Below are positions 18,250 to 64,000 of a stretch of DNA of 64,000 nucleotides, piece after piece; position 1 is the first letter of the stretch, and each line of letters opens with the position of its first letter. Source of the stretch: Sorex araneus (Eukaryota; Chordata; Mammalia; Eulipotyphla; Soricidae). Below the pieces are notes generated by a model. The model did not search any database and was not told where the DNA came from. It saw only the letters and a program-made list of their open reading frames with translations. Both the position numbers and the translations under genes were made by a program. The stretch lies in assembly GCF_027595985.1 (NCBI RefSeq), contig NC_073311.1:51251292-51315291 (forward strand), in the 5' to 3' direction.

Positions 18250-18991
18250 ATGCCAATATTTTTAACCTATGTGTCCAGACACAGGTCCAGACAGATTTTA
18301 ATATGTTTTAAGACACAGGATCTTTAGACTCAACAAGTGATCAATTTGTCACCTTTGTGTGTTGGGTCAGAGTGAGAACCCAGAGGTCCACCCCAGATGT
18401 CACCACAAGAGAAACAGTTTCCAGTTACGCAGTGTTCAAAAAGCCACAGCCGTCACTGACATGCCCTTTCAGAGTGTACGTGAGACTCTTACTCCTGCTA
18501 GTTTTCAGCCCTCCTGCATCAGACTTACTAGTTAGAAGAGCTGTACATTAAGGACTGAAATTGGGAAATTTTGAAACAATGTATCTCTTCTTTACACCAC
18601 ACCCTTTATTAACCTTCCTTTATTCTGTAGAGTCAGACTATACCAGCATTTTATTTAAGTTTTGCTACCCATAGGGCATCACCATGGATATGTTTTGTGT
18701 GTGTGTGTATGTATCAGTGTGTATGTGTATGTGCACGTGCATATATACATGCCATCTTATAAAATACCACAAGGTAAAGCCAATGGGCAAGAACCTTCTG
18801 TACATATCCAAATATTTAAAATTTTCAATTTCTTTCAAGTAGCCTAAGTAAATATTTCAATTCAATATTTTTGAATTAAAGTAAAATGTATTTACCACTT
18901 AGTTTGAAAATGGTCTAATAACTGAAGGAAAGCTGTCCTTTTGATGTTTTAATGTCATGCAACAACAAAATCAAGCATAGCTTTCTTAAAT

Positions 18992-19108
18992 TTTTCCTTC
19001 CTTCCTTCCTTCCTTCCTTCCTTCCTTCCTTCCTTCCTTCCTTCCTTCCTTCCTTCCTTCCTTCCTTCCTTCCTTCCTTCCTTCCTTCCTTCCTTCCTTC
19101 CTTCCTCC
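18992..19108 (+). repeat. (CTTC)n microsatellite
   Basis: Nearly 30 perfect tandem TTCC units are followed by impure pyrimidine tract to about 19270. The same site in unit B (36745-36870) and unit C (57995-58115) is pyrimidine-rich but not a pure tetranucleotide array. Confidence 0.95.
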
Positions 19109-19289
19109 CTTTTGTATTTCCCTCTCTCTCTCTCACTTGCTCTTTTTCTCTCTTTCTTTCTTTATGTTGCTTTCTTGCATTCTTTCTTCCTTGTTTTCCA
19201 CTTACTTGCTTGCTTCCTTTATTTCCTTCCTTTTGCTTTCTTTTCTTTTTTAGCTTGCTTGCTTACTTGCTTGTTTGCTTTCATTTTTG

Positions 19290-19405
19290 AACAGGAGGGA
19301 GATTGGACTACACTCAGCAGTGTTCAATGGCTATTTCTGCCTCTGTTCATTTGGGGTTGGCTGCAAGTGAGACAAGTGCTCTTCCTTCCATTTCTCTGGT
19401 CCTAA
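19290..19405 (-). repeat. Old SINE remnant shared by all three units
   Basis: 'ACTCAGCAGTGTTCAATGGC...TTTGGGGTTGGCTGCAAGTGAG' recurs at about 36895-37010 and 58148-58260, so this insertion predates the triplication. Confidence 0.6.
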
Positions 19406-19458
19406 TCTTGATTTTTCTGTCAACGTACTTCAAAGTAAATAATTTCTTGCATGTACTT

Positions 19459-19630
19459 TTTTTTTTTTTTTGCTGTTTGGGTCACACTAGGCGATGCACA
19501 GGGGTTACTCCTGGCACTCAGGAATTACCTCTGGCAGTGCTCAGGGGACCACATGGGATGCTGGAAATCAAACCCGGGTCGGCCGCATGCAAGGCAAACG
19601 CCCTACCCGCTGTACTATTGCTCCAGCCCC
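19459..19630 (-). repeat. tRNA-derived SINE, short-body subfamily (unit A only)
   Basis: A reverse copy with the 10-bp duplication GCATGTACTT at 19449-19458 and 19631-19640. The matching position in unit B (about 37050) is empty, so it inserted after the units separated. Confidence 0.9.
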
Positions 19631-61030: not shown

Positions 61031-61769
61031 TTAGGGTGCTTGGAGAGACAGTGCAGCAGGCAAGGCATTTGCTTTGCTGTAGCCAACGCAGATTCAATCC
61101 CCACTGCCAGAGTTGTCTGCTAAGCCCAAGAAATGATCCCAAGAGTAAATCCTGAAGCACAGTGGGTGTGGCCCCAAAACAAATGAAAGAAAGACTTTTA
61201 AAAGGATGAGGCACTACAGTGTGCTTTAGATGTCCTGAGACAGTTGGAGAGCACAGAGATGTGTGTTATGGAACAGTGGAACAGTGTTGGGATGCCACTC
61301 TGGCTCTCTCTTTTGATGTAGATGAGATAATGAAGCAGAAATCAGAAATTCAGAATGAGAAATAGAGATATTAATAACTTTGACAAGGAGAGAGATGAAA
61401 TCTACACAATATATAATCCAAGAGTCAGGGCTGAATTAGAATATATTGCGTGGATAGAGACTGCCTGTGTTTCAAACTCAGTGACTGTGGAAAACTCCCA
61501 AGATCTACTAATACTTAGCATTCTCACTAGTAAATTATCTTTATTTAAGTAACTTCGTGAATAAGCTTTCTCTAGAAATCAGCTGCTTGTAGACTATGTC
61601 CATTAATTTATCTTTTAAGACAAGTAACATGTGTCTATCATTATTAAAAGTAGAAAATGCTATGTGCACTTACCTTTGATTTGCCCATGTTCCAAATAAT
61701 TTTTAGACAATTTTGATGTTCACACATTAAGAAAAAAACATTACTCCGCCTTTTATGACTGAAAATATC

Positions 61770-61929
61770 GACATGACGCAAGCACAGTGAGAATTTCCTG
61801 TATTGTGGTTCTAGAACATTTTAGAAGTTAGTGATTTTAGTGCTTTTTGCTGGTACTATAAACAATGTCTTACTGGTAGACTATTTAAGAATTTTATTTA
61901 AATACACATTTTTTTTCTTTTTCTTTTAG
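61770..61929 (+). promoter_or_regulatory. Putative promoter block of KLRD1 copy C
   Basis: The series TGACGCAAGC, GAGAATTTCCTG and TATTGTGGTTC is repeated. The spacer matches copy A's length with one base changed (CACAG for CGCAG). Confidence 0.55.
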
Positions 61930-62048
61930 GTATCTTTCAATGCTGCTTTTGGATTCCTTCACCTCTAGCTGAACTTCAGAATCAACATTTGGAAAAAGTT
62001 ATTTCATCCTTATCTATTTCACCTTTGAGAGATTGTCTCCCATGGCAG
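61930..62048 (+). CDS. KLRD1: KLRD1 copy C exon 1: 5' UTR and first two codons
   Basis: ATGGCAG at 62042-62048 precedes GTATGT. The context is CTCCCATGG, a better Kozak match (C at -1 to -3, G at +4) than the TTCTGATGG of copies A and B. There is no upstream ATG close by. Confidence 0.75.
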
Positions 62049-63924
62049 GTATGTGTGGATCAAGCTATAAAATTAAAAAATTGAATAGTGAGTAATATAA
62101 CCACTAATTTGATTAACTTTGGAGCAGGGATTTTGGAAATAAGTGGTCTTTATTATTTTTTAAAAGAATTTTACCTGATATCAGAATTTTCCACTTTTTA
62201 TCTTTCTGATACTCTATAGATATTATTTTGTGAAGTTTTCCCAACAGTTTTAAAATATGGTTTCTGATAGGCACAGTCCTATATCCTGACTAGAAACGTA
62301 TTTACCAGGTTCAGCTTTGAGAAACATTAGAGCATAAAAATACAGAACTATTATAACAATGATTCAAAGTGTACTTCATATTTTCATTTACAGTTTGTTG
62401 CGACTTCCCAAAGTCACTCAGGTTCACTTTTGACATAGTGAGCTGTTGTTAATGAAATACTTTCTGGGAGTGCGCTGCGTTTTAATGCAGAGTACTCTGT
62501 CTTTCGGGATTAGAGGGAGCTCTGATAGCTGTGCCTGTAGGACACAGGCCCCTCCAGAGACACTCGACCTGGAAGAGTAGACTGGACTGTTCAATATTCT
62601 GACCCAGCCATGTGGAGCTGCCCGGGTCCCGCAGTGTTGGAGCCCCCAGACCCAGTGTTGCTGGGAGAAGGGAATCTGCTACTAGTGGTCAAACCTGGGG
62701 CCTCACACTTGCTTGCAATAAGCAGTATCTGTGAGCAATCAATCTTGGATATGAGAAAATGTGATGCTCTTATGAAAACAATAGTTGCTTAATGGGTAGA
62801 GATGTGGCTCAAGGGTGGAGGGCAAGACTTGTCTGCGCAACGTTCTTATTCAAACTCAGTCCTTCAGGGGAAAGCCAGCCAACACCACTCACTGAGTGTT
62901 AGATCCACACGCTAGGAGTGGTTTTGGGTCCCGGGAACATTTGGTGTGTTTTCTATAAAAATGGTCCCGTATGGGTCAAAAGTCATTTTAATATTAAAAT
63001 ATTATAGATCACGAGATGCGACATTCTTGGGGAACTTCTTATCACACCAAGCCCAGGGTGTCCCAAGTCTACTCATTTCCATGTGACCTCCAGGTTGTTG
63101 AGAGGAGCCAGAGCTCTCTCAGATAGGGAATGCATTACAGTTAGGAGAAGGGAAATCTCCGGAAGTATTATTTTGACAATGAGAAATCATAGTAAATCAA
63201 AGACTCTGAGTCTAAAAAACTTACTTCATTTCTCACTGGAATCTTTATAAGCATTAATATTTTGAAGAAACAATATTTGTAATGGATCCTTAGTTTTCTT
63301 ATGTACATTCTTCCTGTGACTTTTGTATAAAATTGAAAAAAATCAACCTCAGTTATGTAAGGGCATAAATAAAATTTGTTGACCTTTCTACCCAAGATCT
63401 AATTTTCTTTTCCAAAATTTAAATAAATAGTATAGCCAAGAAATTGTACCTGGATGATAGTAAAGAAGTAAAAGTATAGATGATCTCCCTGAAGAATAAG
63501 AAGTATGTCATGTAGATATATTGGCATTTGTGATCAGAGAAAGCACAGCACTACTTGTACATTATATGAGATTTGCCTTACACTGGCCGTGTTGGGATTG
63601 ATTCCTGGCACCACATGTGATCCTCAGAGAAGCATCTCTGCGCAATCTATACGTGGTCCCCAAAGGGGAAGATTGGAATTAGGGAAAGTTACTAAGTCGA
63701 TAGCTGTTCATCTGGGTGGGTCTATAAATCCACAAAATGATTGATTCGTTTTTCATTTTTTTGTGATTTTTAAGAACTACAACTCCCATGCTTTACTTTT
63801 AAAGTGTTTCCTTTCTTTTCTTTCTCTCCAGCCTTTCGGACCACTCAGTGGAGGTGGATCTCTGGAATCTTAGGAATATTGTGCCTTTTCCTGATGATAC
63901 TTTTAGGAATTTTGTTGAATAAGC
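61930..63924 (+). CDS. KLRD1: KLRD1 (CD94) copy C, first two exons (continues past window)
   Basis: Exon 1 is 61930-62048 with ATG at 62042 (ATGGCAG before GTATGT). Exon 2 is 63832-63924 and reads AFRTTQWRWISGILGILCLF then LMILLGILLNK, the closest of the three copies to human CD94 in having F at residue 4 (human MAVFKTT). Both splice sites are intact and the phase is the same as in A and B. The stalk and lectin exons lie beyond the right edge, so whether copy C is functional cannot be judged. Its first 33 residues combine the copy B start (TTQWRW, GILC) with the copy A end (LMILLGILLN). Confidence 0.85.
63832..63924 (+). CDS. KLRD1: KLRD1 copy C exon 2: membrane span
   Basis: 93 bases, the same length as in A and B; the acceptor is TTTCTCTCCAG and the donor AAGC|GTAAGG. 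It encodes a single uncharged hydrophobic span. Confidence 0.93.
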
Positions 63925-64000
63925 GTAAGGATTTTTAATTTTGAAATGTATAAAATTCTGATAAAGTCATTTAATTTTAGATTTTATTTTATTGATGTGT

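Follow-up and report, generated by a model that had tools for sequence, protein, structure and literature searches.

Sequence analysis of three tandem KLRD1 (CD94) genes and a distant older copy in the natural killer complex of Sorex araneus

In 'higher' primates, the partner chain CD94 is non-polymorphic and encoded by a single-copy gene (PMC2757895). Excerpts of the published accounts describe other arrangements. In the mouse lemur, three CD94 chains and five NKG2 chains paired in all combinations to give 15 receptors; the same report (Averdam 2009) also covers ruffed lemur CD94, and several CD94 genes or sequences are listed there for lemurs, potto and tarsier (PMC2757895). Cattle and goats have duplicated KLRD genes (KLRD1/KLRD2) together with expanded KLRC (PMC5350243), and the bats Pteropus alecto (PMC3436859) and Rousettus aegyptiacus (cited in PMC11376593) have more than one CD94 gene or an enlarged CD94/NKG2 set. 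Multiplied CD94 is already known, then, in lemurs, cattle, goats and bats. In the present study we analysed KLRD1 (CD94) genes in a 64,000-nucleotide stretch of the Sorex araneus genome (hereafter the window), which lies on contig NC_073311.1 (C10:51251292-51315291 in the coordinates used here) of an assembly of 2,405,902,106 bases in 65 contigs. Searches of open-licence full text showed no report of CD94 copies in shrews.

Our preferred reading, to which we give a probability of about 0.8, is that three tandem KLRD1 genes and an older fourth copy approximately 244 kb away arose stepwise by segmental duplication in the natural killer complex, and that their likeliest role is to supply alternative ligand-reading halves for multiplied NKG2 chains. 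Comparison of the window with itself (self-blastn) revealed three head-to-tail units made of collinear blocks with 70-84% DNA identity, each holding one KLRD1 copy, named A, B and C (Table 1). The third unit is approximately 15 kb long, its homology to unit 2 running on to ~72.1 kb in coordinates that continue through the 200 kb downstream of the window (window-plus-downstream coordinates). A search upstream of exon 2 found ATGGCAG followed by GTATG once per unit, at the exon 1 starts given in Table 1. Copies A and B have six coding exons each, with GT-AG splice sites throughout, matching phases and no internal stop, and copy A ends three residues early. The last four exons of copy C were located within 4.3 kb downstream of the window, and the whole gene encodes 177 residues with a GC donor at exon 4. 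At the thresholds used, a single stalk exon candidate was obtained in A, in B (these two aligned to each other) and in C. A whole-genome search with protein B gave, beyond A, B and C, one further exon set, named D0, at C10:51.026-51.032 Mb with exon 1 at 51023486. Six stalk candidates were found for D0, two nested ones of which fit by homology, and the protein has 179 or 183 residues depending on the stalk acceptor. D0 also has a GC donor after exon 4 and carries glycine in place of the cysteine at human position 70. In all four copies exon 1 encodes M-A only, the phases are conserved and the frames are open. The original prediction, made from the letters of the window, had proposed three tandem KLRD1 genes with A and B complete and open and C beginning normally. 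This description holds for the window, and C can now be given as a complete gene, but the genome contains at least four KLRD1-like genes.

Judged by sequence similarity, the window copies and D0 are KLRD1 (CD94) genes. Full-length identity to human CD94 was 89/176 for A, 89/179 for B, 96/177 for C and 91/179 for D0. In a PDB search, A and B had human CD94 (1b6e) as their best match, with 141 and 147 bits respectively, whereas single NKG2D or NKG2A domains gave 64-77 bits, which excludes a chance match; the two domains of the NKG2D construct 8tm0 together reached 123 (A) and 140 (B) bits. A Pfam scan of A and B assigned both to PF00059 (C-type lectin-like) with 62 and 56 bits respectively, against a cut-off of 22.6. 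All nine CD94 cysteines are present in A, B and C and eight of them in D0, the nine including Cys59, which we take to be the residue bonding NKG2. All four translations, inspected by eye, show a short cytoplasmic tail without an immunoreceptor tyrosine-based inhibitory motif (ITIM) and a transmembrane helix without a charged residue. The copies resemble human KLRD1 in exon structure and phases (with the same M-A exon 1 in the human gene), short tail, cysteines and approximately 50% identity, and differ from it in that the human gene is single copy and that 10 (A) or 11 (B) of 12 ligand contacts are changed.

We analysed the relationship of the copies further using a tree of lectin domains (11 rows). 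A, B, C and D0 formed one clade with human and mouse CD94 (support 98/97), apart from NKG2D and NKG2A. Within this clade A and B grouped at moderate support (87/94), and C, D0, human and mouse CD94 were left without a resolved order among themselves. The synonymous distances (dS) are graded: 0.24 between A and B, 0.43-0.49 from C to A or B, and 0.80-0.96 from D0 to the rest. This gradation gives a duplication order of D0, C and then A/B, that is, stepwise growth. Copy C is read as a lineage-specific duplication from the array homology and the synonymous distance, not from the tree. At the protein level A and B are identical at 128 of 177 residues and differ at the other 49, with a coding divergence of 81/531 bases.

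To see where these differences lie, we compared the copies at 12 CD94 residues (110, 112, 113, 114, 156, 158, 160, 162, 163, 164, 168 and 171) that are named as touching HLA-E or its peptide in excerpts of three papers (PMC8389527, PMC11698700, PMC8268078). A and B differ at 10 of the 12 contacts but at only 15 of 107 other positions (Fisher one-sided p=1.6e-6; 0/118 circular shifts as extreme). Contacts also differed more often than other positions between B and C (10/12 versus 26/107), A and C (10/12 versus 36/107) and C and D0 (11/12 versus 49/107), the six pairwise comparisons among the four copies not being independent of one another; the A-B contrast is the sharpest of those compared. 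For the A-B contact codons the nonsynonymous distance (dN) was 0.567 and dS 0.195, compared with 0.065 and 0.190 for the rest of the C-type lectin-like domain (CTLD). The six peptide-contacting residues gave a similar A-B result (5/6 versus 20/113, p=0.0015). Averdam and colleagues reported 15 CD94 sites under selection in 'lower' primates (PMC2757895); at these sites A and B differ at 7/14 versus 18/105 (p=0.01), and at the union of contact and 'lower' primate sites at 13/22 versus 12/97.

The excess at contacts could instead represent drift on a loosely constrained surface rather than adaptation, an explanation we consider somewhat unlikely. A human-mouse CD94 control leans the same way, with 8/12 versus 45/106 at contacts (p=0.098; 17/117 shifts), 5/6 versus 48/112 at the peptide-contacting residues (p=0.064), 10/14 versus 43/104 at the 'lower' primate sites (p=0.033) and 15/22 versus 38/96 at the union of sites (p=0.014); of the four sets of sites, two reach significance. 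Contacts are enriched in comparison with human CD94 too (A, 10/12 versus 47/107; B, 11/12 versus 44/107). The control and the comparison with human together indicate that part of the excess reflects a surface that is variable in CD94 generally. The excess is weak against D0 (A-D0, 9/12 versus 49/107, p=0.052; B-D0, 9/12 versus 47/107, p=0.040), the contact set consists of residues named in the three papers rather than derived from a structure, and residue 110, counted as a contact, also touches NKG2. Against drift, dN between A and B is nearly threefold dS at the contacts and constraint holds over the remainder of the domain, the former ratio being taken over 12 codons with a single synonymous change.

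The face turned towards the NKG2 chain behaves differently from the ligand face in part. Residues 66, 75, 107 and 108, described as hydrophobic and dimer-facing in an excerpt of PMC8268078, are identical in A and B. Less favourable for conserved pairing, residues 66, 75 and 108 differ in C, yet are still hydrophobic there, and residues 106 and 109, which form hydrogen bonds with Lys135 of NKG2A in human CD94, are changed in A, B and C, 106 also in D0.

Human and mouse CD94 carry no signalling motif and act as partner chains of NKG2. Each shrew copy would likewise encode a type II membrane protein that has only a stub as its cytoplasmic tail, lacks a signalling motif and spans the membrane with an uncharged helix, and on these features should act as a non-signalling partner chain of disulfide-linked CD94/NKG2 heterodimers. 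The copies diverge at residues that in human CD94 touch MHC-E (MHC, major histocompatibility complex) and its peptide, and A, B and C keep the nine cysteines and hydrophobic residues at the dimer face. From this combination of a kept dimer face and diverged contacts we infer that the likeliest function of the copies, once expressed and paired, would be to supply alternative ligand-reading halves, with altered ligand specificity, to multiplied inhibitory and activating NKG2 chains. If pairing is as in the mouse lemur, exchanging one CD94 for another would change the half that reads MHC and peptide and leave the signal unchanged.

It might also be argued that the genes are duplicated but only one of them, perhaps C or D0, works as CD94, the others decaying or being unexpressed. 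The non-canonical GC donor after exon 4 in C and D0, the missing cysteine 70 of D0 and the early stop of A would all fit such decay, as would weak stop-bearing KLRD1-like matches at C10:51179601 (E 0.099) and 51180971 (E 0.093), which may be relics. However, in each of the four genes the reading frame is open and the splice sites are usable. The coding sequences of A and B align over 531 bases without a single indel, compared with 11.6 predicted from the 54 counted in five intron segments (2480 aligned bases). Overall dN/dS between A and B was 0.64, on the side of constraint, with a bootstrap interval (0.40-1.18) that spans 1; the stalk alone gave 1.84. When the present sequences were allowed to drift neutrally by 0.12 in simulation, just 4.9% (A) and 4.4% (B) of the runs were without any stop. 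C, D0 and the KLRC-like genes a and b in this locus (see below) share the GC donor at the same lectin exon, and in view of this recurrence it looks tolerated and was not read as a defect. We therefore regard decay or lack of expression of all copies but one as improbable.

Confusion of some copies with KLRE1 or another neighbouring KLR family is a far slighter concern. KLRE1 has a longer cytoplasmic region, whereas all four copies have the CD94-type exon 1 encoding M-A only; it was on this exon structure that a KLRE1 identity of any copy was rejected, the comparison holding no KLRE sequence. The copies also range from 89/179 to 96/177 in identity to human CD94 and fall in the CD94 clade, and separate lectin-like genes of the locus (E1-E3, see below) are much more distant. 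The suspicion has some ground in that other mammals have KLRE and KLRD as neighbours at the complex's edge, as described in part of PMC5350243. That the copies are allelic haplotypes of one gene or a false duplication in the assembly, against which the original prediction had already spoken, has a negligible probability, since the A-B distance of 0.15-0.35 substitutions per site in nine non-coding segments (introns and flanks) excludes alleles, the synonymous distances greatly exceed what alleles would show, the units are unlike in length and in short interspersed nuclear element (SINE) insertions, and the 264 kb comprising the window and the 200 kb downstream contain no N bases.

Returning to the reading of a functional KLRD1 array, its setting is that of the natural killer complex. 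GABARAPL1 lies at C10:50963071-50970526, followed at a distance of approximately 53 kb by D0 and then by copy A; an NKG2D-like gene (KLRK1) is on the minus strand at C10:51.3728-51.3751 Mb. This order fits the mammalian natural killer complex as it is in human. Gene order in other species, which it also fits, is given in part of PMC5350243.

Next, we asked whether partner genes are multiplied as well. With a query assembled from NKG2-like exons, 76 matches were obtained genome-wide. Within C10:51.40-52.03 Mb, taking first lectin exons (CTLD1) of 51% identity or more and excluding weaker lectin exons nearby (36-44%), we found 18 KLRC-like loci, 14 on the minus strand and four on the plus strand; multiplication of NKG2-like genes in the same locus is thereby supported. 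All three CTLD exons are present in order at 12 of the 18, CTLD1 only at the remaining six, and one further place has the last two only. The genome offers four open CD94 models alongside 12 KLRC-like loci with three CTLD exons, the latter judged on their CTLD exons alone. Among seven KLRC-like genes, three have ITIM-type cytoplasmic exons and four a transmembrane lysine (activating type), and the cytoplasmic exon of the KLRC-like gene d, which has two ITIMs, has eight exons similar to it. The five genes nearest KLRK1 (a-e; C10:51.40-51.47 Mb, 148.9-221 kb in window-plus-downstream coordinates) keep cytoplasmic or transmembrane exons and first lectin exons, and their last two lectin exons were not recognisable there; in this they are like the KLRC2 pseudogenes of cattle and goats described in part of PMC5350243. 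KLRC-like exons at C10:51.598-51.635 and 51.990-52.025 Mb are mirrored around ~51.812 Mb and score equally or almost so, representing either an inverted duplication of large size or an artefact of the assembly. On the ligand side, at least 166 exons in the genome matched the MHC class I domain (150 of 174 candidates scored), and among the matches listed nearly all lie in contig C2 at 31.6-32.8 and 36.3-37.9 Mb. At two exons per gene, the family would comprise roughly 80 members, pseudogenes included.

Compared with the described systems, the shrew locus resembles that of the mouse lemur (CD94-1/2/3), with three CD94 genes (the lemur proteins differ by 23-24%), multiplied NKG2 and diversification at ligand contacts, as far as the excerpts of PMC2757895 describe it. 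It differs in belonging to a separate lineage, in the 49/177 residues that separate A and B, in the distant fourth copy, and in that pairing was demonstrated in the lemur and is predicted here. With cattle and goats it shares duplicated KLRD and expanded KLRC in laurasiatherians, although two KLRD genes are described in the excerpts of PMC5350243. Pteropus contigs without conserved cysteines, reported in part of PMC3436859, resemble D0, unlike A, B and C. The earlier view of multiple CD94 as a lemur trait was right for lemurs and too narrow for cattle, goats, bats, potto and tarsier (sources as above); the independent expansion in a shrew lineage that it proposed is supported moderately by the tree for A and B, and for C by array homology and dS. 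What the shrew array adds is a further lineage, the stepwise ages, a strong concentration of A-B differences at the ligand face, and the many NKG2-like and MHC class I genes alongside.

Several further observations concern the units and their neighbourhood. In intron 1 (window 24849-25262), A and C are 89-90% identical (A-C 0.89-0.905, A-B 0.565-0.73), compared with 70-88% in other 200-column windows, and an exchange between these units is possible; gene conversion is not claimed, because B aligns poorly there. An Rfam scan of the window gave no match at the gathering thresholds. Pfam gave none above the cut-off for ten selected open reading frames of 111-160 residues (of 263 in the window with at least 60 residues), and as others of similar length were not submitted, further genes may lie between the CD94 copies. 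Upstream of copy A there is another lectin-like receptor gene, E1 (window 2015-2111, 4573-4721, ~4876-5003 and 7375-7497, plus strand), and its relatives E2 (94.6-96.2 kb) and E3 (110.8-112.7 kb, both in window-plus-downstream coordinates) are placed between copy C and KLRK1; E1-E3 are possibly KLRE-like. A relic transmembrane exon like that of E1, with a stop inside, lies at window ~11690-11765. Many more C-type-lectin-like exons weakly matching protein B were seen at C10:49.5-50.9 Mb and C6:89.2-89.6 Mb, which suggests other multiplied lectin receptor clusters.

Table 1. Duplication units and KLRD1 exons, in window positions unless stated otherwise
Feature	Position	Strand	Remark
Duplication unit 1, copy A inside	18295..35415	+	~17.1 kb; self-blastn blocks versus units 2 and 3; left edge 18295
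Duplication unit 2, copy B inside	35416..57158	+	~21.7 kb; self-blastn collinear blocks
Duplication unit 3, copy C inside	57159..64000	+	cut by window end; self-blastn collinear blocks
Copy A exon 1	24501..24507	+	ATGGCAG then GTATGT; M-A
Copy A exon 2, transmembrane	26554..26646	+	
Copy A exon 3, stalk	26777..26839	+	
Copy A exon 4, CTLD part 1	28118..28272	+	
Copy A exon 5, CTLD part 2	29634..29737	+	
Copy A exon 6, CTLD part 3, stop codon	30503..30614	+	protein 177 aa
Copy B exon 1	41358..41364	+	
Copy B exon 2, transmembrane	43194..43286	+	
Copy B exon 3, stalk	43419..43481	+	
Copy B exon 4, CTLD part 1	45098..45252	+	
Copy B exon 5, CTLD part 2	46343..46446	+	
Copy B exon 6, CTLD part 3, stop codon	47518..47638	+	protein 180 aa
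Copy C exon 1	62042..62048	+	
Copy C exon 2, transmembrane	63832..63924	+	
Copy C exons 3-6, past window end	64044-64094, 65855-66012 (GC donor), 67284-67387, 68154-68274		window-plus-downstream coordinates

Tentatively, and with considerable doubt, the data could be taken one step further: a main variable arm of natural killer cell recognition in this shrew lineage may be built on CD94, with at least four chains that differ in their MHC-reading surfaces and a dozen or more NKG2 chains, both inhibitory and activating (arithmetically, 4 x 12 = 48 pairs). These would co-evolve with a very large MHC class I family and form a parallel, of independent origin, to KIR, Ly49 and the lemur system. If the alternative-halves role proposed for the CD94 copies is true, combinatorial CD94/NKG2 recognition would have evolved repeatedly.

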